Virus record (IMG/VR): IMGVR_UViG_3300027720_000017
Span: 1-33,824 of that record
Reading direction: 5' to 3' (one strand)
Length of the DNA: 33,824 nt
DNA from: a virus
Below, one piece after another: positions 8,127 to 30,405 of the stretch (positions are counted from its first letter, which is position 1; each line of letters begins with the position of its first letter). Below the pieces are notes generated by a model. That model ran no database searches. It had not been told where the DNA came from and was given only the letters and a program-made list of their open reading frames with translations. Made by a program: the position numbers and the translations under genes.

Positions 8127-10234
8127 CGGAATGCCCCCGCCATCGACGCGAAGCTGCCCGGGTTCGTTGAGCCAGCCTCCACGCGCAGCAGCTGCATGGG
8201 CTGGCTCATGTTGGCGCTGGTGCCAAAGGTGCCGTCGCCGTTGACGGTGATCTGCACCTGCAGCACGCCCTCACCCAGTTGCACAGTGGCCTGGCCACCG
8301 GGCTGCACAGCGCCCAGGCTCGAACCATTGGCACCTGAGACCTTGATGTAGTCCCGCTCGGGGTCAGCACCCCACAGCTGGCCAGCACCAAACTTGCCCG
8401 CCAAGTAGCCACCGGCACCACCGATCAAGCCACCGGCCAGCGTGCCCAGGCCCGGCAGGAAAGCCGTGCCCAACAGCGCACCGCCTTTGGCGCCCAGCAG
8501 AGCACCACCGGCGCCTGCGGCAGCCATGGTCACGCCACGGGCCTTGCCCATGGCTGTCAGTTGCTCGTTGGTGAGCACGTCATACGACTCCAGGCCAGCG
8601 CCAGCCACCGCAAGACCGGGCCCGATGAATCGCCCGGCACCAGCCAGGCGCGACATCAGCGTCGGGGCAGGCGCCGGGGCAGGCATCGTCACACCCAGCC
8701 CGCGGAACGGGTTTGATGCGGCCACCACACTGGCCGCTGTGGTCGCGGACGCACTCGCACCAGCGCCCCCACCGCGGACCATGTTGAACAGCGCGCCACT
8801 GCCGCGCCAGGCGCCCACAGCGCCGCCCAAGCCCACTCCCAGCAGGCCCGCAGTACCGGCCACCGGGTTGTCAGCGACCAGGTTGCCAAAGCCACCAAAG
8901 AAGCCATTGGCGCGGTCCATCACCGGCTTGGCCGCGTTGCCCAGCGGCGTGGCAATCTGAGCCATCACGTTGGTGATGGTGCCGCCCAGTGATTCAAGCT
9001 TGGCGGCGAAGCTGGTCATGACCAGGTCGAGGCGTTGGTCTAGGCTGGCCTGCGAGTCCATGCGCTGCAGCTGCTCGCGGTAGGCCTCCAGGCCCTTGTC
9101 GGCCAGGATCTGCGCCGGTCGCCCAGCCTCGTCGCCGAACAGGGTCTTGGTGACGTGCTGCTTGTCGATGGTCGACAGCTTGCGCAGCTTGGCCAGCTCG
9201 GCCAGCATGTTCTCGGTGCCCTTGAACTCGCCATCAGCACCAAAGAAGCTCATGTCGATGCCGTGTGATGCGAGCAGCTCCCGCGCCTGCTTGGCCTCAG
9301 GGCTCTTGCGCGAAAGGCGGCTGTCGGTCTGGCTCAGGCGGCTCAGCATCTGCGAGAAGTTGGTGCCGAAGCTCGACCCTTCCAGGCCGACACCCGCGGC
9401 CAAGCCCTGCAAGGCCAGCAGCTCGCGCGCCTTGCCCAGGCCCGACAGCTTCATGGTGTTGTAAGTGGGCGCTGCGTAGCCAGCGGTCACCAGGAAGTCC
9501 TGCGGGTTCACGCCCGATGCGAACGACGTGCGCTGCATCAGGTCGGCCATCTGCGGCAGTTCGTTGGCCTGCAGGCCATAGGCCTCGCGCACCTTAGCAA
9601 TGGTGGCTGCAGCCTGGCCCTGGTTCATCTTCATCAACACGCCGAACTTCGCCGATGCCTCCAGCGCACCACCGGCCACCAGCTCGGGCGACACGCCTTG
9701 GCGAATCAGCTCGGTCGCGCCTTCGAAAAAGTCCTTCGTCGAGCCCGGCAGCTTGTTGCCCAGCTCTTCGGCCTTCTTGGCAATGGCCGGGAAGGCTTTG
9801 TTGACTTGCAACTTGGCGTCCAGCATGGCCGTCTTCAGGCCCACGGTGGCCTCTTCCAGGTCGGCATAGGCGCGCACAGGCGGGGCCATCAGGGCACGGC
9901 CTGCGTAGTAGCCCGCGGCCCCTTGCACGGCCAACTCAGGCAGGGCCTGGGCACCGGCTTGCAGCGTCTGCTTGAGCTGCCGGGCGCGTTGGTGCGCACG
10001 CTCCACGCTGGCAGCCAGCCGGTCAAAGTAGCCCACCTGGCGCTCCATGCTGGTGTTGTTGGCCAGCGTGGTCAGCGTGCGGTGCAGGTCCTTCGCGGTG
10101 CGGTCGGTTTGCCGCGTGGCGCGCGTCATCTGCTCTTGCGAGCGCTCGTACTCCTGCGCCTCGCGCTTGGCCGTCAGGCCGATGTTGGAGGCCAGCTGGA
10201 TGAAGTAGCGCAGCCGCAGCTCTTGGGTGCTCAT
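8123..10234 (-). CDS. Tail tape-measure protein
   Basis: The 703-residue product is the length ruler inside the tail. The N-terminus is helical and charged (residues 1-100, coiled-coil like). Residues ~105-400 match the TP901/PhageMin tail domain with the recognisable AYADLEEATVGLKTAMLDA and GTNFSQMLSRL blocks. Residues ~460-640 are Gly/Ala-rich hydrophobic segments, as in other tape measures that insert into the host inner membrane. It directly follows the frameshifted chaperone pair, the universal order in long-tailed phages. It is rather short, predicting a tail of about 100 nm by the usual 1.5 A per residue rule. Confidence 0.92.
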   Translation of the reverse strand: MSTQELRLRYFIQLASNIGLTAKREAQEYERSQEQMTRATRQTDRTAKDLHRTLTTLANNTSMERQVGYFDRLAASVERAHQRARQLKQTLQAGAQALPELAVQGAAGYYAGRALMAPPVRAYADLEEATVGLKTAMLDAKLQVNKAFPAIAKKAEELGNKLPGSTKDFFEGATELIRQGVSPELVAGGALEASAKFGVLMKMNQGQAAATIAKVREAYGLQANELPQMADLMQRTSFASGVNPQDFLVTAGYAAPTYNTMKLSGLGKARELLALQGLAAGVGLEGSSFGTNFSQMLSRLSQTDSRLSRKSPEAKQARELLASHGIDMSFFGADGEFKGTENMLAELAKLRKLSTIDKQHVTKTLFGDEAGRPAQILADKGLEAYREQLQRMDSQASLDQRLDLVMTSFAAKLESLGGTITNVMAQIATPLGNAAKPVMDRANGFFGGFGNLVADNPVAGTAGLLGVGLGGAVGAWRGSGALFNMVRGGGAGASASATTAASVVAASNPFRGLGVTMPAPAPAPTLMSRLAGAGRFIGPGLAVAGAGLESYDVLTNEQLTAMGKARGVTMAAAGAGGALLGAKGGALLGTAFLPGLGTLAGGLIGGAGGYLAGKFGAGQLWGADPERDYIKVSGANGSSLGAVQPGGQATVQLGEGVLQVQITVNGDGTFGTSANMSQPMQLLRVEAGSTNPGSFASMAGAFR

Positions 10235-10263
10235 GGTGTGGCCGTCCGGTGCTCAGGTGGTGG

Positions 10264-10430
10264 TCAGGTGGCGGGCGGCTTGAGCCTCTCCAGCTCAGCG
10301 GCCCAGCCCCGAAGCTGCGCCAGCGGCACCTTGTCCAGAGTGGTCGGCGAGCATGACAGGGCCCGCGCCATCAGCAGGAGCAGCCGCTCCATCGACTGCA
10401 GCCGGGCCCACGGGCTGTGGGGCGGCAGGC
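10264..10430 (-). CDS. Frameshift extension of the tail assembly chaperone
   Basis: A second reading frame, in the -2 (equivalently +1) phase relative to the gp41-like gene, encodes a protein-like tail SMERLLLLMARALSCSP and DKVPLAQLRGWAAELERL before stopping at 10264. It has no sensible start of its own. The overlapping part of the first frame becomes low-complexity Ala/Gly/Pro. Mu makes its tail chaperone pair by an unusual -2 frameshift (Xu, Hendrix and Duda, 2004), and the phase here is the same. The start given is approximate; I could not fix the slip codon. Confidence 0.68.
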
Positions 10431-10876
10431 GCCTCCACCGGGGCGCTGAACATCTCGTCGTATTGCGCCTGCGTGATCTCGCCGTAGCGCACCTTCGCGG
10501 CCACCTCGATCTGGAACACACGCTCCTCAATCGCGGCCAGGTCAACCGGCTTCAGCTTGCCGACCAGGTCAAGGTCGATCAGGTCACGGTCCAGGCGCAG
10601 GCTGTCGCACACGAAGGCCTCGATGTGCCGCGCCGTCAGCGCCAGCTTGTGGTCCACGTCGCTCACCACCAGGCGGGGCTGGCCTTGCCACAGCACCAGG
10701 CGCTCGGCCTGGCGCACGGCCCAGCGCTCATCGCTCACGTCTACCTCGCGCAGCTTGACCAGCTTGTAGAAGATGGTTTTGCCCTCGCGCTCAACGGGCA
10801 AGCCCACGCGCAGCGTCAGGCTGAACAGATCTTGCGTGGCGAGGGTGGCGGCTTGGGTGGGGGTGCTTGGGCTCAT
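10295..10876 (-). CDS. Tail assembly chaperone, gp41-like
   Basis: Start ATG 10876 gives MSPSTPTQAATLATQDLFSL and a 193-residue protein. The conserved part (residues ~18-150) has the LRVGLPVEREGKTIFYKLVKLREV pattern of Mu-type tail assembly proteins and ends near EITQAQYDEMF. Residues beyond ~152 are Ala/Gly/Pro-rich. It binds tape-measure protein while the tail polymerises. It lies between tail tube and tape measure, is preceded by its own late motif and a terminator, and probably also makes a longer frameshifted form ending at 10264. An N-terminal extension to 10936 would read through the regulatory motif and is unlikely. Confidence 0.85.
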   Translation of the reverse strand: MSPSTPTQAATLATQDLFSLTLRVGLPVEREGKTIFYKLVKLREVDVSDERWAVRQAERLVLWQGQPRLVVSDVDHKLALTARHIEAFVCDSLRLDRDLIDLDLVGKLKPVDLAAIEERVFQIEVAAKVRYGEITQAQYDEMFSAPVEAPAAPQPVGPAAVDGAAAPADGAGPVMLADHSGQGAAGAASGLGR

Positions 10877-10905
10877 GCATACAGTCTCGCCACACCGGCC
10901 AAACC

Positions 10906-10927
10906 GTGCGCGGGGAAACGATTCCCC
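10906..10927 (-). promoter_or_regulatory. Late-operon motif, copy 2
   Basis: On the minus strand it reads GGGGAATCGTTTCCCCGCGC plus AC; GGGGAA and TTCCCC form a dyad. It lies 30 bp before the gp41-like start and just downstream of the terminator at 10953-10981, which is the arrangement expected of a promoter for a new transcription unit. Confidence 0.6.
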
Positions 10928-10948
10928 ACACCCCAACCACCCGCCAAT

Positions 10949-10985
10949 GAAGAAGGGCCCCCAGCACTGCCAGGGGCCCTTTCTC
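10949..10985 (-). terminator. Intrinsic terminator after the tail tube gene
   Basis: AAGGGCCCC (10953-10961) pairs perfectly with GGGGCCCTT (10973-10981) across an 11-nt loop. It is followed by a short T-rich run on the minus strand (CTTCATT) and by TCTCTCTC on the plus strand, so it may work in both directions. It closes the sheath/tube operon. Confidence 0.7.
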
Positions 10986-11057
10986 TCTCAACAACCCAAG
11001 GCTGATCAGGCACAAGGGCGGGGGCACATGCCCCCAGGCTCTCTCAGGGTCGTCAGG

Positions 11058-11426
11058 TCACAGCCACTGCAGTGGCTCAAGCACGTTCATGGTCATCTGC
11101 GTCTGACCACCGCCGATGGCACCCAGCGAGCCGAAGCTGCAGTTGGGCGCCAGGCAGCGGCGCGGGCCGCGGCTGTCTTTGAGCACGATGCGGGCGCCGT
11201 CGATCTTCGCCAGCTCAGCCGGGTCCACCGAGCGGTCGAACTGCAGCTCCAGGTCGATGGTGCGGGCCACGCGCTGGTGCATCTGCTTGTCGGGTCCGCT
11301 GCCGCTCGGCACCACGCTGGAGGTGTAGCCCGCTGCGCCATTGATGCGCGCCGTGCCGTCGACGAAGGCCAGGGCCTGGCCGTTGATGGTGATCGAGTCC
11401 ACCTTGAACAACGAATGTTCGCTCAT
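11058..11426 (-). CDS. Tail tube protein (Mu gpM-like)
   Basis: The 122-residue protein has the Mu gpM tail-tube order: MSEHSLFKVDSITINGQALA, then a central RVARTIDLELQFDRSVDPAEL block and a beta-rich C-terminus. It forms the inner tube through which DNA passes. It follows the sheath gene after a 57-bp gap, as in Mu, and precedes a strong hairpin terminator. Confidence 0.87.
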   Translation of the reverse strand: MSEHSLFKVDSITINGQALAFVDGTARINGAAGYTSSVVPSGSGPDKQMHQRVARTIDLELQFDRSVDPAELAKIDGARIVLKDSRGPRRCLAPNCSFGSLGAIGGGQTQMTMNVLEPLQWL

Positions 11427-11483
11427 GAGAAATCCTTTCGAAGGGTGTTTGAACCGGGTTCAGCGGGGCCTTGAATGCCGCCG

Positions 11484-12974
11484 TCAAACGCGCCCGGCAA
11501 TCGGGAAGCTGGTCACCTCGGTCTGGTAGTGCTGCGTCACCAGCACCGGGTCATCCTGGACCTTGACCTTGCCGTTGGCGCCGTCCAGCTCCACCAGCAG
11601 GCGTTCCTTGTAGTACTCCAGGTTCTGCACCAGGGCCACCTTCTGCAGCTCCAGGTAGATGCCCAGGTGGATCTCCTCCACCAGCTCGGCCGTCATGATC
11701 TTCTGGCCCGGAATCGGCTCGGTGATGTACTCGGCCAACTTGAAGCCGCGGTACTTCAGGGCGTACTCCGTGATGGTGAACCAGCGGTAGTAGCTCATCG
11801 TCTTGACCCACGCCAGCTCACGCGTGCTCGGGTCAGGGGCGCCCGTGGTGCTCAGCGTGTAGTTGGTCACCACGCGCACCAGCGCTGCCGTGCCGTCCTG
11901 GTTGATGGCCAGGGGCGAGGCACCGCCCTGCAGCAGCGCGTTGCCCTCGGTGATCAGGTCCCAGTGCTGGCCGCGGCGCGGGCCCTTGTAGCCGACCAGG
12001 ACGATGTCGGTGTAGGGCAGCGCGGGGTCCGTGCTGGCCGAGGTCTCGATGGCCGCAGCGGCCATGGCAGCGGTTGCCCAGGGGCTGGTCATGTCGCCCG
12101 TGGTGGCAATGGTGTGCACCTGGCGGCTGTTGCGGTTGTTCAGCCACGTGGTCAGCGTGGCCAGCGTGCCGCGCACAGCGGTCACCACCTGGCCGTCGCG
12201 CATGTTGTTGAAGCCCCAGCGCAGCTCCTGCTCGGTCTCCAGCGCCAGCATGTTGGCCGAGTCGGTGAACGCCATGGCGATCTCGGTGGCGCGGTAGTCA
12301 CGCATGGCCGTGATGGCTGCGGTGATGTCCGGGGCGCCTGCACCACCCGACATGGCCGGGATGGTCAGCGTCAGGCCAGCGGGCAGCAGGTCATCGGTGT
12401 AGTGCGTGCTGCGCACATCGATGTCGTTGCCGCTGGGGCCGCCCCACTTGGCGGTCAGGCGCAGCTCGGCCGGAGTGGCGGTGGCAGCGGCGGTGACCGA
12501 CAACGTCGGCTCGGCGTTGATGGCGGCGATCAGCTTCGTGGCCACCGTGGCGGCCGTGTCCGAGGTGTTCACGCCCACAGAGATGCGCGTGCCCTCGATG
12601 TAGAGCATGGCCTCGCCGTTGAACTGCACCGTGGCGCCCGCGTTGGCGACCACGATGGTGCTGGTGGCCACCGTGGCCGTGCCCGACACCGGCACCGCGA
12701 TGATGTCAATCGGCAGGCCCAGGCCTGCGTTGGCCTTGGCCGCACGCCACATGGCCAGCAGCATCGAGCCCTCGCCGCACAGCGCCACGGCGGCGGTCTC
12801 CGTTGCAGCCTCCACCACGGTGTTGGCCTGCGCGTTGCCCGCGGCCAGCTTGTGGCCGATCAGCAGCACGCGGCGCGGCATGCCACGCAAGCCACGCACG
12901 GAGCGGGACCAGTCGATCTTGTGCGCCACGAACGGCAGCAGGAAGTTGAGGCTGAGCAAGTTGGGCAATGACAT
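11484..12974 (-). CDS. Tail sheath protein (Mu gpL-like)
   Basis: The 496-residue contractile sheath subunit matches Mu gpL in length and order. The N-terminal arm is SRSVRGLRGMPRRVLLIGHKLAAG, the middle contains beta-rich variable domains, and the conserved C-terminal domain (TREL AWVKTMSYY, PIPGQKIMTAELVEEIHLG) supplies the strand exchange that links subunits. The start follows GGAGACC, a good ribosome site. It heads the sheath-tube pair after a small gap. Confidence 0.93.
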   Translation of the reverse strand: MSLPNLLSLNFLLPFVAHKIDWSRSVRGLRGMPRRVLLIGHKLAAGNAQANTVVEAATETAAVALCGEGSMLLAMWRAAKANAGLGLPIDIIAVPVSGTATVATSTIVVANAGATVQFNGEAMLYIEGTRISVGVNTSDTAATVATKLIAAINAEPTLSVTAAATATPAELRLTAKWGGPSGNDIDVRSTHYTDDLLPAGLTLTIPAMSGGAGAPDITAAITAMRDYRATEIAMAFTDSANMLALETEQELRWGFNNMRDGQVVTAVRGTLATLTTWLNNRNSRQVHTIATTGDMTSPWATAAMAAAAIETSASTDPALPYTDIVLVGYKGPRRGQHWDLITEGNALLQGGASPLAINQDGTAALVRVVTNYTLSTTGAPDPSTRELAWVKTMSYYRWFTITEYALKYRGFKLAEYITEPIPGQKIMTAELVEEIHLGIYLELQKVALVQNLEYYKERLLVELDGANGKVKVQDDPVLVTQHYQTEVTSFPIAGRV

Positions 12975-13046
12975 GAGGGTCTCCGGTGCGCGTTGTGGTG
13001 TAGATGAAGCGGCTGGGGCGTGTGCTGCGGCGGCTGAGACGTCAGG

Positions 13047-13256
13047 TCACTGCACGCAAGACAGCGGGTAGATGAGGCAAGTGGTGGTCGGAGAGCCACC
13101 GCCCGTGATCGGCCACGGCAAGGGCGTCGGCGTGGGGTTGGTCACCGGGGGTGTGGTCGGGCGGGGCGTTGTGCCTGGTGCGTTGCCACTGCGCAGGGCG
13201 GCGTGGGCGGTGCTGGATGCCAGCAGCAGGGCGAAGATGAGGATGAGTTTTTGCAT
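13047..13256 (-). CDS. Small secreted proline/threonine-rich protein
   Basis: Start ATG 13256 lies 2 bp beyond the upstream stop codon (GTG 13262 is an alternative in the same frame). The 69-residue product begins MQKLILIFALLLASSTAHA, a clear signal peptide with an AHA cleavage site. The mature ~50 residues are rich in Pro, Thr and Gly with two cysteines near the C-terminus (TTTCLIYPLSCVQ) that could form a disulphide. It is coupled to the GH172-like gene and is not part of the usual Mu late set. I recognise no family. It may be a cargo gene or an envelope-directed partner of the upstream protein. Confidence 0.55.
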   Translation of the reverse strand: MQKLILIFALLLASSTAHAALRSGNAPGTTPRPTTPPVTNPTPTPLPWPITGGGSPTTTCLIYPLSCVQ

Positions 13257-13258
13257 GA

Positions 13259-14575
13259 TCACGGGCCGATGTAGGTGTAGTAAAAGAGGACGTAAGCCCA
13301 GCGCATGCCGACGTTGGATGCCGCTTTGCCAGCACCCTTGCCTACAGAGCCAAAACTCCCGCCGTTCGGCAGCAGGACACCGCCGTTGTATTTGCCGAGC
13401 AGGTCAACAACGAACGACGCACCCCGGTCCATGCCACCAGACTGATAGGCGTCATTGCCAAAACGGCGCGCGACTGCATCAATGTTGGCCGTGCCGTTTA
13501 CGGTGACGCCGTCCGTGGCCTTGGTCTGCACAGTCACCAATGCACGGTTGACCAAGTCGGAGTAGTACGAGCCCCCGAAAAAGTCCTCGATGCCGCTGGT
13601 TTTCCACATCGTGGGCGCGACCAGCGACGGCGTCACAGTCGAGTCCCAGGTGGCGTGACACGTCTCCATCCAGCTGAGATTCCCCCCTACGGAGAACCGG
13701 GTGTTGACCTGGCTGTATCCGGCCAAAATCACAGGCACACCGGCCGGGAACGTCGCCAACACCTTGAAACTGTTTTGTGTGGCCGCGGGCATGTCGAGGC
13801 CGAAATTGTTCACGCCAGCGACGTCAACGCCAACAGGCGAGCTGCCGTCGATCGCCAAGATGGGGACGCCCTTCGCGCCAAACGCCCAGGCGGACCGCTG
13901 ACCAACCCGGTATTGCAGCTGCACGAACAGGTTCTGGGGGTTCGCCATGCCGGTGTAATCGCCAGCCTGAGGCGTCGGGACGACATACTCAATCCGGCAC
14001 GATGTGCGCCACGGGATCGGGTATTTGAAAATCTGGTGCATCCCGGCTTGGTAAAGATGAGATGTCCAGTACGGCAGATTGCCAATGGCTCCCCACCAGT
14101 TCCCGAAGATCACAGACACCGGGGTTGCTTGCATGACAACGACGCCATCAACAGTCACGCGGAGCTGCGCAAACTCGTTGTAGGTCGTACCCGAGATGAG
14201 CTGAATGAAATCGACGACGCCGGGAGTGCCAGTCAGGCCCTCTGTATCCGTGTTGAAAAGGTCATACGCGTTGCCAATATTGACGAGGTACTCATAGACC
14301 GTTTTAGTGCGCGTTGCAGCGTCAGCAGTCGATGTCGTCGCTGGCAATTCACGAATCACCAGATCGCGCCCCCCACCGGCTACATTGGACTGCCCAGGCA
14401 CCACAGGCGCAGCCGCGATCCCCAGGCTGGTCGCATACCCCAGCGCCACCAGGCGGTTGGCTTGGGTGTCTTCGGCAACGAAGTCCTGCGCGTTGTCGCC
14501 GCTGGTCTGGCCAGGAATGCGCAGCACGCCAGAGTGGCGGATGGGGGTCAGTGCACGAACGTTTTGGTAGCCCAT
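13259..14575 (-). CDS. GH172/DUF2961-like virion-associated protein
   Basis: This 438-residue protein has an N-terminal ~55-residue phage module (VRALTPIRHSGVLRIPGQ, then QANRLVALGYA), a linker, and a C-terminal ~330 residues resembling the DUF2961/GH172 family. Support is the order of a beta-rich RVTVDGVVVMQ block (139-149), HQIFKYPIPWRTSCRIEYVV (180-199), NLSWMETCHATW (299-310) and above all SGIEDFFGGSYYSD (327-340), which matches the family's S/T-G-T-E-D-Y-F segment. GH172 enzymes act on fructose or arabinofuranose sugars. It sits between gp37-like and sheath genes and has lower GC than its neighbours. A role in binding or cutting host surface glycans is inference; capsid-like jelly-roll architecture without enzymatic activity is the alternative. 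Confidence 0.6.
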   Translation of the reverse strand: MGYQNVRALTPIRHSGVLRIPGQTSGDNAQDFVAEDTQANRLVALGYATSLGIAAAPVVPGQSNVAGGGRDLVIRELPATTSTADAATRTKTVYEYLVNIGNAYDLFNTDTEGLTGTPGVVDFIQLISGTTYNEFAQLRVTVDGVVVMQATPVSVIFGNWWGAIGNLPYWTSHLYQAGMHQIFKYPIPWRTSCRIEYVVPTPQAGDYTGMANPQNLFVQLQYRVGQRSAWAFGAKGVPILAIDGSSPVGVDVAGVNNFGLDMPAATQNSFKVLATFPAGVPVILAGYSQVNTRFSVGGNLSWMETCHATWDSTVTPSLVAPTMWKTSGIEDFFGGSYYSDLVNRALVTVQTKATDGVTVNGTANIDAVARRFGNDAYQSGGMDRGASFVVDLLGKYNGGVLLPNGGSFGSVGKGAGKAASNVGMRWAYVLFYYTYIGP

Positions 14576-14588
14576 GGTGGGTGCCTCG

Positions 14589-15191
14589 TCAGTTGTTGGT
14601 CGGGGGTTGGAACACCAGCTCGTGCGTCACAGGCACGGGCTCATCGCTTGCGGCCTGGTCGGCCTGGTGCGGCATCACGCTGGTGCTCGTGATGTCAATG
14701 CCGAGCAGCTCGTACAGCTGCGGCAGGGGCACGGTGGCGCGCACGCATTGGCGCCAGCTCACCAGCCACAGGGCCAGGCCCTTGGCGTCGATTTTTCGGT
14801 TGTAGACGTTCTCGCAGCGCACGTCCTCCTCAGGTGAGGCCACCTCCAGCACCGCACCAGGTGCATTGGTGGGCACCCAGGTGGTCAGCGCCAGGTCCAC
14901 ACGCTCAGCCAGGCGCTGGGCGGCCAACATGCGGTCGGCGCGGTCGGCGTCTTTGGTCACCACAAAGGCAGCCATGTGGCACACGCGCACGTTGCGGCCT
15001 GCCATGCGTTCGCCACCGCGTGGGCGCATCCAGCCCAGCCCTGCAATGAGGATGGCCGGGCAGTTGAAGCCCGCCATCACCACCTCGTCGGCGCTGAACT
15101 GGCCACCGTAGAAGGTGACGTCAACCACCTCTTGCGGCGTGAAGGTTTGACGCATGAAGCCCTTCACGGTCTCCATCAGCAGCACGCTCAT
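14589..15191 (-). CDS. Mu gp37-like protein (DUF1834)
   Basis: This 200-residue protein matches DUF1834, the Mu gp37 family: MSVLLMETVKGFMRQTFTPQEV at the start, GGERMAGRNVRVCHMAAFVVTKD in the middle (ca. residues 59-81) and a C-terminal YNRKIDAKGLALWLVSWRQCVRATVPLP. Position between gpG-like and sheath genes supports a head-tail joining or tail terminator role, which is not established for the family to my knowledge. It overlaps the gpG-like stop by 4 bp. Confidence 0.8.
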   Translation of the reverse strand: MSVLLMETVKGFMRQTFTPQEVVDVTFYGGQFSADEVVMAGFNCPAILIAGLGWMRPRGGERMAGRNVRVCHMAAFVVTKDADRADRMLAAQRLAERVDLALTTWVPTNAPGAVLEVASPEEDVRCENVYNRKIDAKGLALWLVSWRQCVRATVPLPQLYELLGIDITSTSVMPHQADQAASDEPVPVTHELVFQPPTNN

Positions 15192-15664
15192 CGGGCACCT
15201 CCCGGCGCCAGGCGCTCCAGCTCTTCGAACACCAGCGTGCCCAGGTACGCCTGGTCGGCGGCGTTCACGCCCAGCACAGGCCGGGCCTCGATCTTGATGG
15301 CATGCCCACGGCCTGCCTGGCCACCGAAGTGGTGGATGCGGGCGTACACGCTGTTGCTGCCAATCTGCACGCCACTGGGCAGCACGTTGTAGGTGTACGA
15401 GTCGTACAGGTGGTGCTTGTCAATCAGCGTCTTGCCGTCGCGCTCGATGGCCGCGGCTGACTGGGGCATGGCCGAGCCATCCACCAGCACCTGATCGTCA
15501 AAGCGGTCTTGCACCTGGCCGAGCATGTACTCGCCCATCTCACGTCGCAGCCCTTCAGAGAGCGAGCCCCCCGTAGCGGCCAGCAGCGCCAGGTGGCGCT
15601 CGATGGTGCGGGCGGCTGCATCGACCTGCAGCGTCACCCCGGAGTTGATGGTGGTGGTGCTCAT
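15188..15664 (-). CDS. Virion morphogenesis protein (Mu gpG-like)
   Basis: Start ATG 15664 overlaps the gp36-like stop in an ATGA; a longer frame to 15802 runs inside gp36. The 158-residue product has the virion-morphogenesis/tail-completion family layout: a helical N-terminus (VDAAARTIERHLALLAATGG), LSEGLRREMGEYMLGQVQDRF, KTLIDKHHLYDSYTYNVLPSGVQIGSNSVYARIHHFGGQAG and a basic C-terminus. In Mu gpG is associated with head or tail completion. The order gp36, gpG, gp37 differs slightly from Mu, where G is nearer the head genes. Confidence 0.85.
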   Translation of the reverse strand: MSTTTINSGVTLQVDAAARTIERHLALLAATGGSLSEGLRREMGEYMLGQVQDRFDDQVLVDGSAMPQSAAAIERDGKTLIDKHHLYDSYTYNVLPSGVQIGSNSVYARIHHFGGQAGRGHAIKIEARPVLGVNAADQAYLGTLVFEELERLAPGGAR

Positions 15665-16191
15665 CACACCGCCCCGAAGCGTTGCCAGTCGAAGCCGCTC
15701 TTGGCCTGGCCGGTCAGCACCTTGCCGCTGCCGAAGGTGGCATTGGCATCGGCCGTGGTCGACACCAGCTGCACCGTCTTGTTGGAGATGTCCACCAGCC
15801 ACTTGCGCCAGCGGTCAGCCCGCTTGACGATCAGCTCGGTGGACATGTCCGAGTCGCTGGCCAGCTCATCGCGGGCCAGGGCAATGCAGCACTCGTCGAG
15901 CGTACCCAGGGCCGCGTCACCAGCCTGCAGGGGCAGCGCCACAGCCCCGCGAAGGTAGCCGTCCATGTAGTTGCTCACGGTGCCCAGCTTGCGCACCAGG
16001 CGGTCGTGGGCAGCCATTGCGGCCACACGCTCAGGCAGGGTCGTGGTCGGCGCCCAGGCACCACCCGCCACCACCGCCAGCACCTGGTGCAGCAGGTCCA
16101 CGGTCAGCACGCGCCCATCGTCCAGCAGCTGGCCGCGGGCTTCGTCGGAGCCCACCTCCTCGCAGTACCGGGTGGGGGTGGTGTAGGCCAT
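15664..16191 (-). CDS. Mu gp36-like protein (DUF1320)
   Basis: The 175-residue product matches DUF1320. It opens MAYTTPTRYCEEVGSDEA and continues with a helical head-tail connector-like domain ending at SDMSTELIVKRADRWRKWLVDISNKTVQL (ca. residues 118-146). Family members are predicted adaptor proteins at the head-tail interface. The gene follows the gp35-like gene after 60 bp with no clear ribosome site, and its stop overlaps the gpG-like start, so the two are probably coupled. Confidence 0.83.
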   Translation of the reverse strand: MAYTTPTRYCEEVGSDEARGQLLDDGRVLTVDLLHQVLAVVAGGAWAPTTTLPERVAAMAAHDRLVRKLGTVSNYMDGYLRGAVALPLQAGDAALGTLDECCIALARDELASDSDMSTELIVKRADRWRKWLVDISNKTVQLVSTTADANATFGSGKVLTGQAKSGFDWQRFGAV

Positions 16192-16250
16192 GGCTGGTGC
16201 GTCCTGGTCGTGTGGCTGGGGTGGTGGTGGCTGGGGCTGGCTCAGGCCGC

Positions 16251-16964
16251 TCAGGCGCGGTTGCGGCCCTTGGTAGCGGTGGTCGTGGCGGTGGCGGTGG
16301 CGGTGGTGGTTTCAGCGGCAGTGCCGGTGCCGGTGTCGGCGGCAGCAGCATCGGCCGCGGCCTGGTCAACCACGGCCTGGTCAGCGGCCTGGGCGGTGGC
16401 ATCGGCATCGCCAACGGCGGCGTCTGTGGTGGCAGCAGAGTCAGCCGCGGCCACGTCCGTCGAGGCGCCAGGGGCAGCGTTGGTCTCGGCAACCACTGTG
16501 CCCACGTCGGCCGTCTCGGTGCTGGCCAGGGGTGCCAGGGTCAGCAGCACATCGGCGGAAGCCAGGCGGGCGGTCACCTCGGCCAGCTGCTCTTGCGTGT
16601 CAGCCAGCTGCTCGATCAGGTTGTCGCGGGCGGCGGTGGCATCGGCCAGTTGGGCGCGCAGCTTGTCGGCCTCGACCATCTCGACCGCATCGGCAAACGT
16701 CGTCACCAGGCCGGTGGCGGTGTCGGTGCCCAGCAGGCTGGTGTCCACCACGCTGGCCAGGGCGTCGGCATCGACCACCTCGGCGCGCTTCACAGCGCCC
16801 GCTTTGATCAGCGACTCGGCCACGTGCTCTGGCACCAGGAAGGTCTCGGCATTGGGGCCGGTCTTCACGCCGGGAATGTGCTTCTCGCGGTCGTGCTCGA
16901 TGGTGACCAGCGCGGTCACCAGGATCATCGTGGCAAGCGCCACAGGGGTCAGTGTCTTGGTCAT
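16251..16964 (-). CDS. gp35-like head-region protein with low-complexity tail
   Basis: This 237-residue protein lies at the Mu gp35 position between major capsid and gp36. Residues 1-65 carry GPNAETFLVPEHVAESLIKAGAVKRAEVV, typical of the gp35 N-terminal domain. Residues 88-145 form a predicted coiled coil (ADKLRAQLADATAARDNLIE). The last ~90 residues are Ala/Thr/Asp-only low complexity ending in a basic KGRNRA. The DNA of that tail is a run of imperfect GGTGGC hexamers, which suggests expansion by slippage. Function is not known; FluMu/Mu gp35 is a minor head or connector component at best. Confidence 0.65.
   Translation of the reverse strand: MTKTLTPVALATMILVTALVTIEHDREKHIPGVKTGPNAETFLVPEHVAESLIKAGAVKRAEVVDADALASVVDTSLLGTDTATGLVTTFADAVEMVEADKLRAQLADATAARDNLIEQLADTQEQLAEVTARLASADVLLTLAPLASTETADVGTVVAETNAAPGASTDVAAADSAATTDAAVGDADATAQAADQAVVDQAAADAAAADTGTGTAAETTTATATATTTATKGRNRA
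16272..16320 (-). repeat. GGTGGC-type simple repeat in the gp35-like gene
   Basis: The plus strand shows GGTGGTCGTGGCGGTGGCGG followed by further GGTGGC-like units, coding for Thr/Ala alternation at the C-terminus of the gp35-like protein. The length of this tract probably varies between relatives. Confidence 0.6.
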
Positions 16965-17024
16965 GTCAACCTCGTTTCAGGGGTGTGTGAAGTCGGTGTG
17001 GTCGGCGCTTGAAGGCCCCTCACA

Positions 17025-17042
17025 GCCCAGCCGAAGCCGGGC
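17025..17042 (-). terminator. UUCG-loop hairpin after the major capsid gene
   Basis: The minus strand reads GCCCGGC-TTCG-GCTGGGC, a 7-bp stem (one G-U) with a stable UUCG tetraloop, 22 bp beyond the capsid stop codon. No T-run follows. It may be a partial terminator or an mRNA 3'-end stabiliser that keeps capsid expression above that of downstream genes. Confidence 0.5.
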
Positions 17043-17063
17043 CATGAGTGCTCGGGCTCAGGC

Positions 17064-18023
17064 TCAGCCGGTGACGGCGTTCTTCCAGAGGTAGGCCAGG
17101 TCGGACGCGATGATCAGTTCCTTGACCGACTCGCCCACGCGCTGGCGCTCGCCACCGCGGATGCCCATGTCCGGGTCCACGATGGAGCCCGCCACGCGGG
17201 TGCCCCACTCGGCCGTGAAGCCGAAGGTGACGCCGTACTCGGTGTCGGCGTTCATGTCACGGTGGAAGGCCAGCATGTCGTTGCCCCACACGCGCTGCAT
17301 GTTCACCGGCTGGCCCTTGGCCGCGGTGTTGAGCCAGCCCTCGCCGATGATGGGCAGCTCGCTCATCTCGAACAGCTCTGCGAACTGGGCACGCGTCACC
17401 AGGCCGTTGTTGGTGCCGTTCTTAAACACCGCTGCGCAGATGCGTGGGTGGCGGCTCAGGAACGACCACACGCGTCGGCCCATCACCAGGTTGGTCGGGC
17501 GCATGAACAGCGAGTCGAGCACGTCAGGGATGGCGCGCGAAGGGTCGCTGTTGGTGTAGTCGCTCCACTGGCTGGTACCGCTCAGCACGATGCGGTTGTC
17601 CACACCGTAGTTCGCCACGTTGGTGACCAGGTCGGCCACGCGCTTCTCGCGGCGGGTCAGCAGGCACTGCGTCAGGGCACGGGTGGCACGCAGGCGGGGG
17701 TCCACCAGGCGCGTGTTGCCGTTGCGGCGGGCGCCCTCGTAGTTCTGCACGTCGGCGTTCGGGATGGGCGTGTCCAGGCCGTGGTCCACGGTCACGTCGC
17801 TCAGCTCTTTGGAGCCGAATTCGACTTCGGCCGGCTTGCCCTTGCGGCCCACTTCCGTCTCGGGAATCGTGAAGCCGTCTTCCTTGTTGTAGACGTTGTA
17901 GCCAAAGCGCTGCGTGTCCACAGGCACGCGAGGCAGCACCAGGTCGGCAACCAGGTCGGACTGGGTGTACGCAACGGCCACGGCCGTGGCGGTGGCGCTG
18001 ATGGTGAACGGAGCAAGCGACAT
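17064..18023 (-). CDS. Major capsid protein
   Basis: The 319-residue product is the probable major head subunit. It follows the protease/scaffold and decoration genes, the standard head order. The N-terminus (MSLAPFTISATATAVAVAYTQSDLVADLVLPRV) and the VYNKEDGFTIPETEVGRKGKP, ALTQCLLTRREKRVADLVTN and FMRPTNLVMGRRVWSFLSRHP blocks fit HK97-fold capsid proteins of Mu-like phages. It is clearly different from classical Mu gpT, so the head comes from another lineage than Mu itself. The C-terminus has the typical domain ending in a VKELIIASDLAYLWKNAV strand. A UUCG hairpin follows. Confidence 0.83.
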   Translation of the reverse strand: MSLAPFTISATATAVAVAYTQSDLVADLVLPRVPVDTQRFGYNVYNKEDGFTIPETEVGRKGKPAEVEFGSKELSDVTVDHGLDTPIPNADVQNYEGARRNGNTRLVDPRLRATRALTQCLLTRREKRVADLVTNVANYGVDNRIVLSGTSQWSDYTNSDPSRAIPDVLDSLFMRPTNLVMGRRVWSFLSRHPRICAAVFKNGTNNGLVTRAQFAELFEMSELPIIGEGWLNTAAKGQPVNMQRVWGNDMLAFHRDMNADTEYGVTFGFTAEWGTRVAGSIVDPDMGIRGGERQRVGESVKELIIASDLAYLWKNAVTG

Positions 18024-18090
18024 GGGGTTCTCCAGGTATCGATGGGGTCAGGTGACAGGGGTGTCTGCGTCAGGGTGAGTGCGGTGGGCC

Positions 18091-18459
18091 TCAGCCCTGG
18101 ATCACACCGAGGGAGCGCAGGTAGGGGATGACGTCTTCGGCGGCGCCGCTCTTCAAGGCACGACCGATGACCTGGACGTTGCTGCCCGCAGCAGGCGCAG
18201 CAGCAATGGCCTTGCCTGCGGCGTTGGAGGTCAGCCACTGGCCGCGGGTCACCGCAGCACCCAACTTCACTTCGGCCGTGGGGCGGAGATCCAGGTCGAC
18301 CATCTCGCCCGTGACCTTGTCCAGGCTGTCAGCGGTGCCCAACAGCAGGTCGGTGGCGGCAGCGGCAGGCACCACCGTGAAATCAGCCGTGCCCGGCTTG
18401 ACGATCAGGTTGCCCGCGACCGCGGCCTGGGCAATGAGGCTTTTGAACTCGGTGGTCAT
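18091..18459 (-). CDS. Capsid decoration (head cement) protein
   Basis: The 122-residue, alanine/valine-rich beta protein lies between protease/scaffold and capsid genes, where head-stabilising proteins are normally found. It resembles DUF2190-type capsid cement proteins, with a small-molecule-like beta-tulip pattern (IVKPGTADFTVVPAAAATDLLLGTADS, then VTRGQWLTSNAAGKAIAAAP). It would trimerise on the expanded head surface. Identification rests on position and composition rather than a unique motif. Confidence 0.68.
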   Translation of the reverse strand: MTTEFKSLIAQAAVAGNLIVKPGTADFTVVPAAAATDLLLGTADSLDKVTGEMVDLDLRPTAEVKLGAAVTRGQWLTSNAAGKAIAAAPAAGSNVQVIGRALKSGAAEDVIPYLRSLGVIQG

Positions 18460-18513
18460 GTGTGACTCCAGTGATTGGGTGGGTGTGTGGTGTGGTGGTG
18501 CTGCTGCGCTGGC

Positions 18514-19035
18514 TCAGGCCTGGGGCTGGGCCTGGTCTGCCACGTGCTGCACCGCGAACTCGAAGCTGCAGCTGCGGCCCGCGGCCTGCTCGGCCTTCTG
18601 GAACTCGGCGGCAGCGGCGTTGATGGCGGCCGGGTCTTGCAGGTCCAGCGCAACGTCGTCGCCGGTTTGCGAGCCAGCGCCCGAGCCGCCCAACTTCACG
18701 GCGGGCTTGCGGGCAGTGACGAACTCGGCAAAGAAGTCCAGCAGGCCCTTCTTGGCCGGTGCAGCGGCACCCGGTGCCGTGAACTCGAAGGCCTCGGCCT
18801 GGTCGAGTGCGCCCATGAACTCGCGCAGGCCAGCCTCGTCGGCGGGCAGGATCAAGCCCTTGGCCTTCCAGCCGTCGATGAGGCCTTGCGCCCGCTCATC
18901 CCGGCGCTGGGCACGCAGCTCGGCCAGCTCATGGCCCTGAGCAGCGAACTGCGCCTGGGCGATTTGTTGCGCCTCGGCGCGTGCGGCAGCGAGCCGCTCG
19001 TCGAGCTGCTCTTGGGTCAGGGTGATGTCAGGCAT
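18514..19035 (-). CDS. Scaffold protein from an internal start (Mu gpZ-like)
   Basis: ATG 19035, in frame inside the protease gene, is preceded by a strong ribosome site (GGAGACC, 19041-19047) and opens MPDITLTQEQLDERLAAARA. The resulting 173-residue helical protein would be the independent scaffold, as Mu gpZ is made from within gene I. The ribosome site in mid-gene is the main evidence. Confidence 0.7.
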   Translation of the reverse strand: MPDITLTQEQLDERLAAARAEAQQIAQAQFAAQGHELAELRAQRRDERAQGLIDGWKAKGLILPADEAGLREFMGALDQAEAFEFTAPGAAAPAKKGLLDFFAEFVTARKPAVKLGGSGAGSQTGDDVALDLQDPAAINAAAAEFQKAEQAAGRSCSFEFAVQHVADQAQPQA

Positions 19036-19764
19036 CGAAGGGTCTCCGGTGTTGGAGGGGTGAGAAAACATGGGGTTGGTGGTGGTCGGATCAGCCGCAG
19101 CCTCAGCGGCCAGCGCTTCACGCGCCGCTTGCGCCTGGTTGACCACCGAGTCGATCTGCCAGGTCGGCAGCACGCGGTCGGCCACGTCCACGCCGTCCTG
19201 CTCGATCACGTGGTCGCGCAGGCCACGCAGCAAGCGGCCGATGTTGTCGATGGCGTAGCTCAGCGCCTGGGCAGCGATCTCATCGCCGTCGGCCGCGAAC
19301 TCGAAGTCCTCAGCCACATCACCGGCAGCGAACTGCACCGGGTTGGGCGACAGGCCGTCGATGGCGGGCGGCTGCGCACCCAGCCAGCCCACGTGCCACA
19401 GGCGCAGACCGTGGGCCTTGTCGCGAACGATCTTGATGGAGCGGTTGCGGTAGGCACCCAGTGCCACACCGTCATCGAATGCCGGGTTGATGTCGCCGAA
19501 CTTGGCAAACAGGCTGTCGCCGTCTCGCTTGAGGCCATCCACCCATGCATAGGCCGGGTCGTTGTCCTTCGGGTGACCCAGCACACCAGGGGCACGGCCC
19601 AGCGCGTGGTTGGCCACGATCTGGTCGATGTCAGCCGTGGACGCCTTGAACTCACGGCCCTTGCTGTCCGTGTGCGTGCCGGCCTTGAAAATCTCGACCC
19701 AGCCACGCAGCTGCGGCGCCTTGGCGGTGGTGCTGTCGCGGGGTGTGGTGGTTGCGGTGCTCAT
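18514..19764 (-). CDS. Prohead protease with fused scaffold (Mu gpI-like)
   Basis: Start ATG 19764 gives a 416-residue protein; the longer frame to 19836 crosses the late motif and is rejected. The N-terminal ~170 residues match the Mu gpI protease (LRGWVEIFKAGTHTDSKGREF, ILGHPKDNDPAYAWVDGL-like core with GVLGHPKDNDP, then ALGAYRNRSIKI); H and S of these blocks are candidate catalytic residues. The C-terminal part from residue ~244 is coiled coil (EQLDERLAAARAEAQQIAQA) and acts as scaffold. It matures the prohead and is removed before packaging. It is the first gene of the head/tail operon, 30 bp after a late motif. Confidence 0.87.
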   Translation of the reverse strand: MSTATTTPRDSTTAKAPQLRGWVEIFKAGTHTDSKGREFKASTADIDQIVANHALGRAPGVLGHPKDNDPAYAWVDGLKRDGDSLFAKFGDINPAFDDGVALGAYRNRSIKIVRDKAHGLRLWHVGWLGAQPPAIDGLSPNPVQFAAGDVAEDFEFAADGDEIAAQALSYAIDNIGRLLRGLRDHVIEQDGVDVADRVLPTWQIDSVVNQAQAAREALAAEAAADPTTTNPMFSHPSNTGDPSMPDITLTQEQLDERLAAARAEAQQIAQAQFAAQGHELAELRAQRRDERAQGLIDGWKAKGLILPADEAGLREFMGALDQAEAFEFTAPGAAAPAKKGLLDFFAEFVTARKPAVKLGGSGAGSQTGDDVALDLQDPAAINAAAAEFQKAEQAAGRSCSFEFAVQHVADQAQPQA

Positions 19765-23348: not shown

Positions 23349-23662
23349 CACCGCTCTCCCGCAAACAGGCCATGCACGCCAGCACGCGCTCGGTGGTACT
23401 CACGCTGTGCCTGCTGCAGCTCTTGCCTAAGCAGCGCCATGTGCTCCTCGTGCAGTGCCAGCTCGCGCTCGATGTGCCCGTAGGCCGTGCTCAGGCTCTT
23501 CGAGGCCCGCCACATGCGCCAGCTCATCAGCAGGCCCTTGAGGCCTTGCTCGTCGCGCAGCCGGGCGTAGAACGCCACGTCGCGCAGGTGGCCCAGCACC
23601 CAGCCGCGGGCCAGCGTCCACAGTGCTGCCACGGTCAACATCACGGTGTAGAGCTTGCTCAC
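23348..23662 (-). CDS. Hypothetical membrane-anchored early protein
   Basis: GTG 23662 overlaps the MuB stop (GTGA), and GGAGG lies upstream with good spacing. The 104-residue product has one N-terminal hydrophobic helix (MLTVAALWTLARGWVLGHL) and a long charged helical C-terminus (IERELALHEEHMALLRQELQQAQREYHRA). It may be a membrane-tethered coiled coil. No known family. Confidence 0.58.
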   Translation of the reverse strand: MSKLYTVMLTVAALWTLARGWVLGHLRDVAFYARLRDEQGLKGLLMSWRMWRASKSLSTAYGHIERELALHEEHMALLRQELQQAQREYHRARAGVHGLFAGER

Positions 23663-24606
23663 TTGGCACCTCCCATCCGGCGACCAGGCGTCTCCAGTGA
23701 AAGCACGTCACGCGCCACGGCCTTGATGTGATCAGAGGTCAGGGGCCCCTTGCCGCAGAAGTCGCGGATGTTGGGCACGAACAGCTCCGTCAGCACCCGG
23801 GCACTGCCATCGCAGTAGTGCCACAGCGTGTCCAAAACTTCATCGCTGATCTCACCCATGTCACCCAGCGCAGCACGAGCCAGGTCGTCGGCGTCGTCAC
23901 GGGTGATGCACTTCACCGTCGCAGGCCACATGCCGATGCGGCTGCGCACCTGGTCAAACTGGCCGCGCTCGGGCTGGATCAGCTCCGCGAGCTTCTCCGT
24001 GCCCACCAGCACCACGCCGACACCGGCAACGTCACGGATGCGGCGCAGGTAATCGATGGTGTCGCTGTTGCAGCGGTTCGCCTCATCGATGATGAGCAGA
24101 TAGTTGGTGCCCTTGAGCGTGTTCAGGATGGCGCGGAACTTCTGGTCCAGGCCAGCCGGAGCGGGTACGTTCAGTTGAGCAAGCAGCTCAGTCAGCATCA
24201 CACCCGGAGTCATCTTTGGGCTGCTCTCGATGAACACCGTCTGCGGGTGGGTCGCACAGTACTCTTTGCAACCCTTGGTCTTGCCCACGCCCACGTAGCC
24301 GCAGAACATACCGATGCTGGCCGTCTTGCGGGTGCGGTCCAGCACCACGTGCAGCAGCTTGTGCACGCTGGTCTTCACGTAGCCCACGGGGCCATCGGCC
24401 ATGCGCTCGTTCTCCACCTGCAGGGCAGACCACATCGTATGCAGCTGCTGATTCGGTGGGCTGGCGTACTTGCCGTTCAGGATCTGGCTCACGGTGCCCG
24501 ATGGGATCTTGGCCTTGCGAGCCAGCCAGGCCCGGGACTGATCGTTGTCGCTCAGCCACTTGTTGATCTGGTCAACCAGATGCAGATCGTCATGCGTGTA
24601 GCTCAC
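23659..24606 (-). CDS. Transposition ATPase (MuB-like)
   Basis: This 315-residue AAA+ ATPase captures target DNA and stimulates the transposase. The N-terminal HTH (LARKAKIPSGTVSQILNGKY, residues 28-47) is characteristic of MuB. Walker A is GYVGVGKT (103-110), Walker B LLIIDEA (170-176), and the sensor region GVVLVGTE (197-204). Length is near Mu B (312). It starts at GTG 24606, overlapping the previous gene by 4 bp. Target immunity is expected but not visible in sequence. Confidence 0.93.
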   Translation of the reverse strand: MSYTHDDLHLVDQINKWLSDNDQSRAWLARKAKIPSGTVSQILNGKYASPPNQQLHTMWSALQVENERMADGPVGYVKTSVHKLLHVVLDRTRKTASIGMFCGYVGVGKTKGCKEYCATHPQTVFIESSPKMTPGVMLTELLAQLNVPAPAGLDQKFRAILNTLKGTNYLLIIDEANRCNSDTIDYLRRIRDVAGVGVVLVGTEKLAELIQPERGQFDQVRSRIGMWPATVKCITRDDADDLARAALGDMGEISDEVLDTLWHYCDGSARVLTELFVPNIRDFCGKGPLTSDHIKAVARDVLSLETPGRRMGGAK

Positions 24607-24845
24607 AGGAAAGCTCCCTTCAATGGATGGTTCTTGTTCACGTGGCGCGCATTGCAGATGTGCACGCCGGTCATCGTTTGCACGGCCAGGAACAGAGCCC
24701 CTTGGGCAACGTCCACATGCACACGCACTTGGCTGTTGATGTGCTTGGCCAGGTCGGCATGCGACCAGGTCAGCCCCTCGAATTGCAGCTCCCCCGTGTC
24801 GCTCACGGTGCGGGTCTCAGCGGGCGCTTGCAGCAGCTTCAACAT
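24603..24845 (-). CDS. Small hypothetical protein between transposase and ATPase
   Basis: ATG 24845 overlaps the transposase stop and the product is 80 residues. It has FEGLTWSHADLAKHINSQVRVHVDVAQGALFLAV and no recognised domain. The overlap on both sides (4 bp) makes it part of the transposition cassette. It may be a small accessory of transposition. Confidence 0.65.
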   Translation of the reverse strand: MLKLLQAPAETRTVSDTGELQFEGLTWSHADLAKHINSQVRVHVDVAQGALFLAVQTMTGVHICNARHVNKNHPLKGAFL

Positions 24846-26497
24846 CACGTCTTGTCCCTCCAGTTGAGTAGGTCGATCTCGATCACGTCAGCCGCAGGCT
24901 TGGGCACCTCCAGCACCACCGGGGTGATGGCCTCAAGCTGTGCCACCTGGTCGGCGGCAGTGACGCTGTCTTGGGCGCGGGCCTGGGCTTCTTCCAGGTG
25001 GCGCTGCAGGCGCTTGGTCTGGCCTGCCAGGCGCTTCTCGCGCTGCTCTTCGATGCGGCTCGTGGGCAGCACGCCGATGGTGTTGACCAGCTTGGCCTCG
25101 GCAATGAAGCGGCCCTTCTTGTCGAACACCCACACGCGCTTGTCGTTGTGCAGGTCGTACTCCACGTCCACCTCTTTGGCGTCGTACAGGGCCAGGGCCT
25201 CGTGGTAGTAGGTCCGGTTGTGCAGGCGCACCGTCTGGCGCTGCACGCTGCGCAACTCGTGCGGGCGCACCACCACCTGGTCGGGCAGGCCCACGCTCAC
25301 AGGTGTCAGGCCAGCCCACACTTGGGCCGGTGTGCGTCCACCCAGCACGTCCATGGGCGTGCGGTGGTATTGCTCCAGCCAGGCAGTGAAGCTGTCCACG
25401 TACTGGGCCAGGCTGGGCAGCACGCGCTTGCCCTGCTGCAGCTCGGCGCTCAGGCGGCGGTTGGTCTCGGGTGCCGCGTCATCGCCGCAGTACACCAAGC
25501 CACCCGCAAAGAACTTGTCATGGCGGTCGCGCACGGTGCGGAAGAAGCGCTCAATCCAGCCCTTGCCGTGCGGGTTGCCTGGCAAGGCCCCGATCACTTC
25601 CATGTCGAAGCGCTTGTAGAAGCCGGTGACTTCGTCGCTCAGCATCTTGGCGCGGTAGCCTGCGCCCCGGTCGATGTACAGCCAGGCGGGCACGTGGTCA
25701 TGCGTCACCATGGCGTGGCTCAGCGCGTACAGCGTGGACACACCGCTTTCTGACTCGGTCAAGTACCAGCCCGTGATGTACCGGCTCTTGATGTCGATGA
25801 ACACCGTCAGCTCGGGCCGGAAGGGCTTGCCCGTGTTGGGGTGCCCCACGTAGCAGTCGGCCGTGTGGCCGTCGCCCGCGTACACCTCGCCCACCAAGAT
25901 GTCGTCGAGGTGGCGGCGCTGGTAGTGCTGGCGCTTGAGCTTGTGCAGGTGCTTGCCCACACGTGCCGGGCTGTGCTCGCCCAGGGTCGCTGGCAGCGCT
26001 TTGATGAAGCGCTTCACGCGGCTCTCGGTCACATTCGCGAATCCCTCGAAGATCAGGCGCTGCGCCACATCCATGAAGCCCGGCTTGCTGGGGATGTTGT
26101 ACAGCTCCACAGCCCGCGCCTCCCAGCCGTATTCCTGGCGCACGCGCCCCGTGTGCTTGGGCAGCAGCCCGGCCTTGCCGTTGGCCTTGTAGGCGCTCAG
26201 CATCCGCTTGATGGTCGGCACGCTGGGTGCCTCGCCATCGCGGGCCAGCAGCTTGAGCACGTGGGCCGTGTTTGGGTCCAGCGTGCCTGCAGCCACGCGG
26301 GCCACGAACAGCTCGGCCACCCTGGTGATGCTCACGCCGTTCTCGACCAGGTCGAACAGCGGACGCACCACCACCTCGCGCAGCTCGGCTGTGCGGCGCT
26401 GCGTGTCTGTCGCAGCCGCCCACGGGTCGGCCGTCAGCACCGATGGCAGATCACTCATCGCGTGGACGTGTTTGGTGAGTTTGAGAACGTTGCCCAT
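24845..26497 (-). CDS. DDE transposase (MuA-like)
   Basis: The 550-residue DDE/RNase H-fold transposase joins phage ends to target DNA. Catalytic residues are visible at D209 (YAGDGHT), D276 (YIDRGAGY) and E315 (GWIERFF). The N-terminal ~180 residues contain winged-helix end-binding segments (VPTIKRMLSAYKANGKAGLLPKHTGR). The C-terminus has a Mu-type beta-barrel (LRSVQRQTVRLHNRTYYHEALALYDAKEV) and a charged tail that probably contacts the ATPase. It is shorter than Mu A (663), lacking part of the enhancer-binding N-terminus, as in the BcepMu group. Confidence 0.95.
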   Translation of the reverse strand: MGNVLKLTKHVHAMSDLPSVLTADPWAAATDTQRRTAELREVVVRPLFDLVENGVSITRVAELFVARVAAGTLDPNTAHVLKLLARDGEAPSVPTIKRMLSAYKANGKAGLLPKHTGRVRQEYGWEARAVELYNIPSKPGFMDVAQRLIFEGFANVTESRVKRFIKALPATLGEHSPARVGKHLHKLKRQHYQRRHLDDILVGEVYAGDGHTADCYVGHPNTGKPFRPELTVFIDIKSRYITGWYLTESESGVSTLYALSHAMVTHDHVPAWLYIDRGAGYRAKMLSDEVTGFYKRFDMEVIGALPGNPHGKGWIERFFRTVRDRHDKFFAGGLVYCGDDAAPETNRRLSAELQQGKRVLPSLAQYVDSFTAWLEQYHRTPMDVLGGRTPAQVWAGLTPVSVGLPDQVVVRPHELRSVQRQTVRLHNRTYYHEALALYDAKEVDVEYDLHNDKRVWVFDKKGRFIAEAKLVNTIGVLPTSRIEEQREKRLAGQTKRLQRHLEEAQARAQDSVTAADQVAQLEAITPVVLEVPKPAADVIEIDLLNWRDKT

Positions 26498-28720: not shown

Positions 28721-28731
28721 AGGGAGAAAAA

Positions 28732-29394: not shown

Positions 29395-29399
29395 TGAGT

Positions 29400-29460
29400 G
29401 GCTTGGCTTACAACGGTCGAGGCTATCTAGCGCGCACGGCCAGGTAAGCCCGACCAAGCC
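29400..29460 (+). other. Structured intergenic element before tcmP
   Basis: GGCTTGG-CTTAC (29400-29411) can pair with GTAAG (29444-29448) and CCAAGCC (29454-29460), giving a two-part stem with a 5-nt bulge and ~32-nt loop. It lies between the membrane-protein stop codon and tcmP. It could be a terminator-like or RNA control element. No T-run is present. Confidence 0.4.
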
Positions 29461-30384: not shown

Positions 30385-30405
30385 TCCAACACCGAGGGCC
30401 GAGCC

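Follow-up and report, generated by a model that had tools for sequence, protein, structure and literature searches.

The gene at positions 13259..14575 of the window (the whole stretch of 33,824 nucleotides analyzed here, virus record IMGVR_UViG_3300027720_000017) encodes a 438-residue protein, called P0002 below, which, as read from its sequence, is a distant GH172-like domain set on a phage anchor module and would take its place among the virion-borne carbohydrate-active decorations. P0002 is most likely (with a probability of about 0.6) a virion decoration protein, which would form the GH172-like head of a turret or spike on the capsid and would bind and probably cleave glycans. Gene position and the precedent of the viruses HFTV1 and HRTV-29 point to a protein that is virion-borne and decorates the capsid.

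The gene and its neighbors

The P0002 gene is on the minus strand and runs from an ATG at 14575 to a stop at 13259; the coordinates and the length given in the first-pass annotation are correct. The plus strand of the same interval contains no stops, by chance, and nothing recognizable is encoded there (by eye). Residues 1–57 (14405..14575, minus strand) constitute the phage anchor module and residues 70–438 (13262..14368, minus strand) the GH172-like region, recognized by the matches to PF11175 and to gp60 of HRTV-29 and by the family alignment, in which two jelly rolls are expected. The stretch SGIEDFFGGSYYSD corresponds to residues 327–340. There is no signal peptide on P0002.

The record is that of a Mu-like myophage, with the P0002 gene within the head–tail gene block. 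The Mu-like gene set includes a transposase (24845–26497) and a B-like protein (23659–24606). After these come a late activator, the head protease, the scaffold, the major capsid protein (17064..18023, minus strand; phrog_1005, 5.9e-81), gp36 (15664–16191), a Mu G-like virion morphogenesis protein (15188..15715, minus strand; PF05069, 2.4e-19), a gp37-like tail terminator/neck gene (14589..15191, minus strand; phrog_490, 2.6e-13), and P0002. Downstream are a 71-residue ORF, the tail sheath (11484..12974, minus strand; phrog_165, 6.9e-114), the tail chaperone, the tape measure, the hub, and baseplate genes, then the tail fiber and fiber-assembly genes (1615–2872) and a DNA methyltransferase. 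Thus, the gp37-like and sheath genes flank P0002 as had been claimed. The 71-residue ORF (13047..13262, minus strand) overlaps the stop codon of P0002; it begins with a MQKLILIFALLLASSTAHA-like signal peptide (by eye), has a Pro/Thr-rich tail, and gave no database match.

The locus had been described as GC-poorer than its surroundings, and the composition agrees: the gene has a GC content of 0.603 and a GC3 of 0.736, against 0.66–0.70 and 0.82–0.93 for most neighbors. Within the gene, the first 60 codons are at 0.661 and the remainder at 0.594, so that it is the C-terminal domain that looks foreign. The GC content also falls, to 0.56–0.60, toward the opposite end of the record, at window positions 28000–31000 in the early or accessory region.

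Comparison with a sister phage

A sister phage lies on L001, a contig that was binned with an Aquabacterium olei MAG. In blastn, the window and this contig share three collinear blocks with about 75%–77% DNA identity (window positions 8539–12975, 14437–16215, and 16755–19073). The similarity ends at 14437 and starts again at 12975, which leaves a cassette without DNA similarity (12976..14436, minus strand) made of the C-terminal domain and the 71-residue ORF, the latter absent from the sister phage. At the protein level, the identities are 87% for the capsid protein, 80% for the sheath, 76% for gp36, 78% for the G-like protein, and 67% for the gp37-like protein. In the slot protein of the sister phage, the N-terminal module is kept at 86% over 57 residues (87% over residues 1–52), an independent confirmation of the phage-type module noticed in the first-pass annotation, and is followed by 520 more residues ending in a C-terminus unrelated to that of P0002. 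Because the module is conserved, the C-termini are unrelated, and the flanking genes are collinear, the GH172-like part of P0002 appears to be a swapped cassette.

The sister slot protein (L001:4217–5953) consists of the N-terminal module, fiber-like repeats, and a C-terminus in which the eye finds a likeness to NodB-type polysaccharide deacetylases. Such a reading, which would mirror HFTV1 (see below), does not count as evidence here: PF01522 gave no match and the PDB only a chitin deacetylase at E = 0.93.

The slot contains only a small protein of ~70–100 residues in Curvibacter phage TJ1, in Burkholderia phage KS10, and in the prophages of three genomes (G078, G245, and G240); by position and by eye, these small proteins of most Mu-like relatives are gp38/DUF2635-like. 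There is no BLASTP alignment between the N-terminal module and the small slot protein of phage TJ1, and no relative of the module was found in the PDB. Searches of phages, plasmids, and IMG/VR found no whole-protein relatives of P0002. The host family of the sister phage, with 401 genomes searched, gave, besides the sister module, five weak matches, and the three inspected are in unrelated non-viral DNA; no intermediates emerged from an alignment-based search of 349 genomes from the order to which that host belongs.

In a related prophage, a 611-residue protein without Pfam match (L061:3686–5518, minus strand) lies in the head gene block upstream of gp36; it is SGNH-esterase-like by eye and possibly another carbohydrate-active decoration. 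In another prophage (L064:2066–5062, minus strand), the gp37-like gene is preceded upstream by genes for two large proteins, Ig/LamG-like by eye, which again suggests virion decorations in the head–neck region.

DUF2961 genes and the turret slot in other tailed viruses

A survey of 2022 reported no viral members of DUF2961, nor any virus genes in the vicinity of DUF2961 genes (PMC8812541). We observed such genes in two other tailed viruses. In IMG/VR, a siphophage present on three contigs (L041/L043, L042, and L045) has a canonical DUF2961 gene of 342 residues (L041:2630–3655, also in L042, L043, and L045; PF11175, 1.3e-78). This gene directly follows Dit (phrog_33, 3.4e-9) and precedes a Tal-like tail protein (PF06605, 3.8e-19; phrog_3558, 2.7e-135). 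The siphophage is probably gut-derived, since close relatives are found in faecal records. The second case is gp60 of the haloarchaeal siphovirus HRTV-29 (L046:9803–10906; PF11175, 2.4e-15, 57 bits), annotated as DUF2961 in its GenBank record and located between the tail-completion genes and the tail tube. No paper on either gene was found in the library that was searched.

A scan of IMG/VR with the canonical octapeptide GTGTEDYF returned chance matches only; DUF2961 genes look rare there, with the proviso that a single-motif scan can miss divergent ones. A scan with the pattern GIEDFFG yielded unrelated phage proteins and chance frames. Two GenBank records labeled "Bacteriophage sp." with DUF2961 (MT835583 and MT835628, from faeces and marked UNVERIFIED) are not counted as viral, since they look like Bacteroides chromosomal polysaccharide-utilization loci. 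Also left out is an IMG/VR contig (L040/L044) whose DNA looks bacterial and whose DUF2961 gene is broken. A separate family of phage proteins (L023–L026, L028–L030, L033, L034, L036, L038, and L039) has RGIEDFFGNIWNWVDG together with a C-terminus that varies; by eye, its members resemble variable proteins of the formylglycine-enzyme/C-type-lectin-like kind and are perhaps diversified.

The order gp37-like, P0002, sheath in the window corresponds to the order tail-completion, slot gene, tail tube in HRTV-29 and HFTV1. These two viruses belong to the same family, with identities of 87% for the capsid protein, 72% for the G-like protein, 52% for the tail-completion protein, and 65% for the tail tube; in the corresponding slot, gp30–gp31 of HFTV1 (L054:14862–16297) and gp59–gp60 of HRTV-29 have no similarity. 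In HRTV-4, a third member of this family, the slot lacks a large gene. In the 2025 cryo-EM structure of HFTV1, gp30 forms the hexameric base of the turret, which plugs into the hexamers of the capsid, and gp31 forms the trimeric head, with galactose-binding-like and polysaccharide-deacetylase-like domains; binding and degradation of host glycans have been proposed as the role of this head (PMC12494034). Virions of HFTV1 have been seen contacting cells heads first (PMC9973310). By analogy, HRTV-29 may carry a GH172 turret head, perhaps as trimers. Such a head would suit the GH172 family because its proteins form pseudo-hexagonal trimers with the active sites between protomers (PMC8812541, PMC8605356). 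Judged from gene order and protein identities, P0002 and its sister protein repeat the HFTV1/HRTV-29 arrangement: a near-identical capsid, a constant N-terminal module, and an exchanged head.

An attachment of the enzyme to the tail or neck instead (as a spike, collar whisker, or baseplate-side depolymerase) is less probable. The gene does lie between the terminator and sheath genes, and the siphophage DUF2961 gene occupies a tail-tip position; on the other side, the phage has its own tail fiber and fiber-assembly genes, and the slot product is on the capsid in Haloferuviridae (PMC12494034). The capsid is favored over the tail on account of the HFTV1 precedent and the ordinary tail fiber encoded elsewhere in the phage. 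Counting against the turret reading are the lack of sequence homology between the HFTV1 turret genes and P0002 and the small slot gene of most Mu-like relatives.

Family-invariant residues and fold

In an alignment of P0002 with eight genuine DUF2961 members, residues identical in all eight were taken as invariant. P0002 keeps 10 of the 13 invariant residues, with all four acids among them: E304 (13664..13666), aligned with the acid/base E270 of alphaFFase1 and also in BLASTP to L040; D311 (13643..13645), an invariant Asp of the family; E330 (13586..13588), in SGIEDFF, aligned with the nucleophile E291; and D331 (13583..13585), aligned with D292 (all on the minus strand). In alphaFFase1, mutation of E270, E291, or D292 (a subsite residue) almost abolishes activity (PMC8605356). 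Y187 of alphaFFase1 is aligned by eye with F217 of P0002, and the Y187F mutant retains 90% on an aryl substrate (PMC8605356). Thus, the catalytic acids E304, E330, and D331, whose absence had been named beforehand as grounds for rejecting the assignment, are present in the alignment.

The retention of these acids tips the balance slightly toward a hydrolytic rather than purely adhesive role for P0002. A domain of the same origin and virion place that does not cleave, a glycan-binding adhesin head with the fold and part of the pocket, is unlikely. It would account for the highly divergent sequence, for the loss of the family-typical YRWH.DP and DD..S motifs toward the C-terminus, and for the replacement of W267 of alphaFFase1 (essential-looking) by S301. 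Yet four of four acids is above expectation for a freely drifting pocket, and the first W of WWGEG is also missing in the gut DUF2961 subfamily (TCWVEGE) and in HRTV-29.

Structure prediction with AlphaFold gave very low confidence (pLDDT 29.3 for P0002 alone and 37.4 when an alignment of four rows, taken from the window and from viral contigs, was supplied). The model at 37.4 is mostly beta. For its residues 70–227, Foldseek/VIA-align returned only generic jelly-roll and CBM-like matches, with Z at most 6.5. No GH172 entry is among the matches listed, which says nothing given the low confidence of the model; likewise, the generic jelly-roll likeness of the first half in this low-confidence model is consistent with GH172 but is not evidence for it. 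A double jelly-roll fold of residues ~70–438 is what membership of this lineage would imply.

The similarity to GH172 is distant, and the first-pass assignment as GH172/DUF2961-like stands in part. PF11175 matches residues 138–340 of P0002 with 15.7 bits (E = 0.011), below the curated Pfam cut-off of 27 bits, and for this reason we describe the protein as GH172-like and do not file it as a member of GH172. Other phage proteins here gave chance Pfam matches of similar E-value (0.012–0.022), so the sub-threshold score decides nothing by itself. The best pairwise match in BLASTP is gp60 of HRTV-29 (E = 3e-4, residues 183–333), which is also the top-scoring of ten DUF2961 proteins in Smith–Waterman alignments, with a score reached by 8 of 2000 shuffles. 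Against an HMM built from ten DUF2961 proteins, only 1 of 20,000 shuffles outscored P0002. The homology part of the assignment is upheld by the invariant residues: 240 shuffles sent through the same aligner kept at most eight invariants and at most three acids (none equals P0002), and six unrelated phage proteins from the window keep three to five. The blocks collinear with GH172 span residues ~119–333, with about 20% identity. Together, these comparisons indicate that the C-terminal domain very probably shares ancestry with GH172. A chance likeness, with the domain an unrelated beta-sandwich for receptor binding or decoration, is improbable: the sub-threshold Pfam score, an hhalign probability of only ~1%–2%, the want of a confident fold, and the occurrence of GIEDFFG alone in unrelated phage proteins would fit it, but the collinear invariants and a best match that is a genuine viral DUF2961 protein in the equivalent slot do not.

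Least probable is a moron or lysogenic-conversion gene, whose product would be no part of the virion but an enzyme that the lysogen secretes or uses, for which the lower GC and the signal-peptide-like start of the adjacent 71-residue ORF could be cited, against the lack of a signal peptide on P0002 itself, an N-terminus common to a sister slot protein with a different C-terminus, and the late gene block and orientation.

Discussion

In the capsid turret or spike reading, the N-terminal module (residues 1–57) would anchor P0002 to the particle and the GH172-like part (residues ~70–438) would trimerize, as in its family. The sites between subunits would bind, and probably cleave, furanoside-type sugars of a host surface glycan, as the family and the catalytic acids suggest. 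Binding would provide a reversible first contact that aids adsorption; cleavage, if any, would thin the glycan layer, and the tail would then reach its receptor. The C-terminal head would be an exchangeable cassette, acquired recently enough for its lower GC to persist.

The survey of 2022 (PMC8812541) is contradicted by three tailed viruses, unrelated to one another, whose virion modules contain DUF2961 or DUF2961-like genes. For the specialist, the surprise is that a double-jelly-roll sugar-enzyme family recurs in the virion modules of tailed viruses. The GH172 fold is regarded as a relative of virus shells, and exaptation of a DUF2961-like protein has been proposed as the origin of the double-jelly-roll capsid proteins (PMC8812541). 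We tentatively suggest that a cellular double-jelly-roll carbohydrate enzyme could have been recruited several times to the surface of tailed virions with the HK97 fold, probably as trimeric turret heads on hexons. If true, the step proposed for that origin, exaptation of a DUF2961-like trimer into a virion, could be seen in a living example, and both great capsid folds would be present in one particle. Tailed viruses with such virion genes open this proposed step of capsid evolution to testing. Taken with the structure of the HFTV1 turret, they point to a gene slot in tailed viruses of bacteria and archaea at which carbohydrate-active heads are traded, with relevance to adsorption and enzyme discovery.

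P0002 can be compared with several known systems. With the GH172/DUF2961 proteins (alphaFFase1 of Bifidobacterium dentium, 7V1V; 4KQ7; 8IC8), it has in common both catalytic glutamates and the aspartate that comes after the second; unlike them, it is below the Pfam cut-off at ~20% identity, has lost the C-terminal motifs, and is fused to a phage module. Like gp60 of HRTV-29, it is a GH172 relative of a tailed virus in an equivalent slot; HRTV-29 differs in its separate small upstream gp59 in place of a fused module, its archaeal host, the absence of a sheath, and a gp60 far closer to the Pfam profile. With the HFTV1 turret (the base TBP gp30 and the head THP gp31), the slot is equivalent and a carbohydrate-active head is swapped between near-identical capsids, but the HFTV1 head is deacetylase-like and galactose-binding-like, not GH172, and its location comes from cryo-EM, where that of P0002 is deduced. 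The gut siphophage also has a GH172 gene in a virion module, but that gene is canonical and unfused, and its place between the Dit and Tal genes is a tail-tip position. Phage tail-spike depolymerases and the head spikes of RcGTA are likewise carried on the particle and bind or cut surface polysaccharide, with folds and families that differ from those of P0002.
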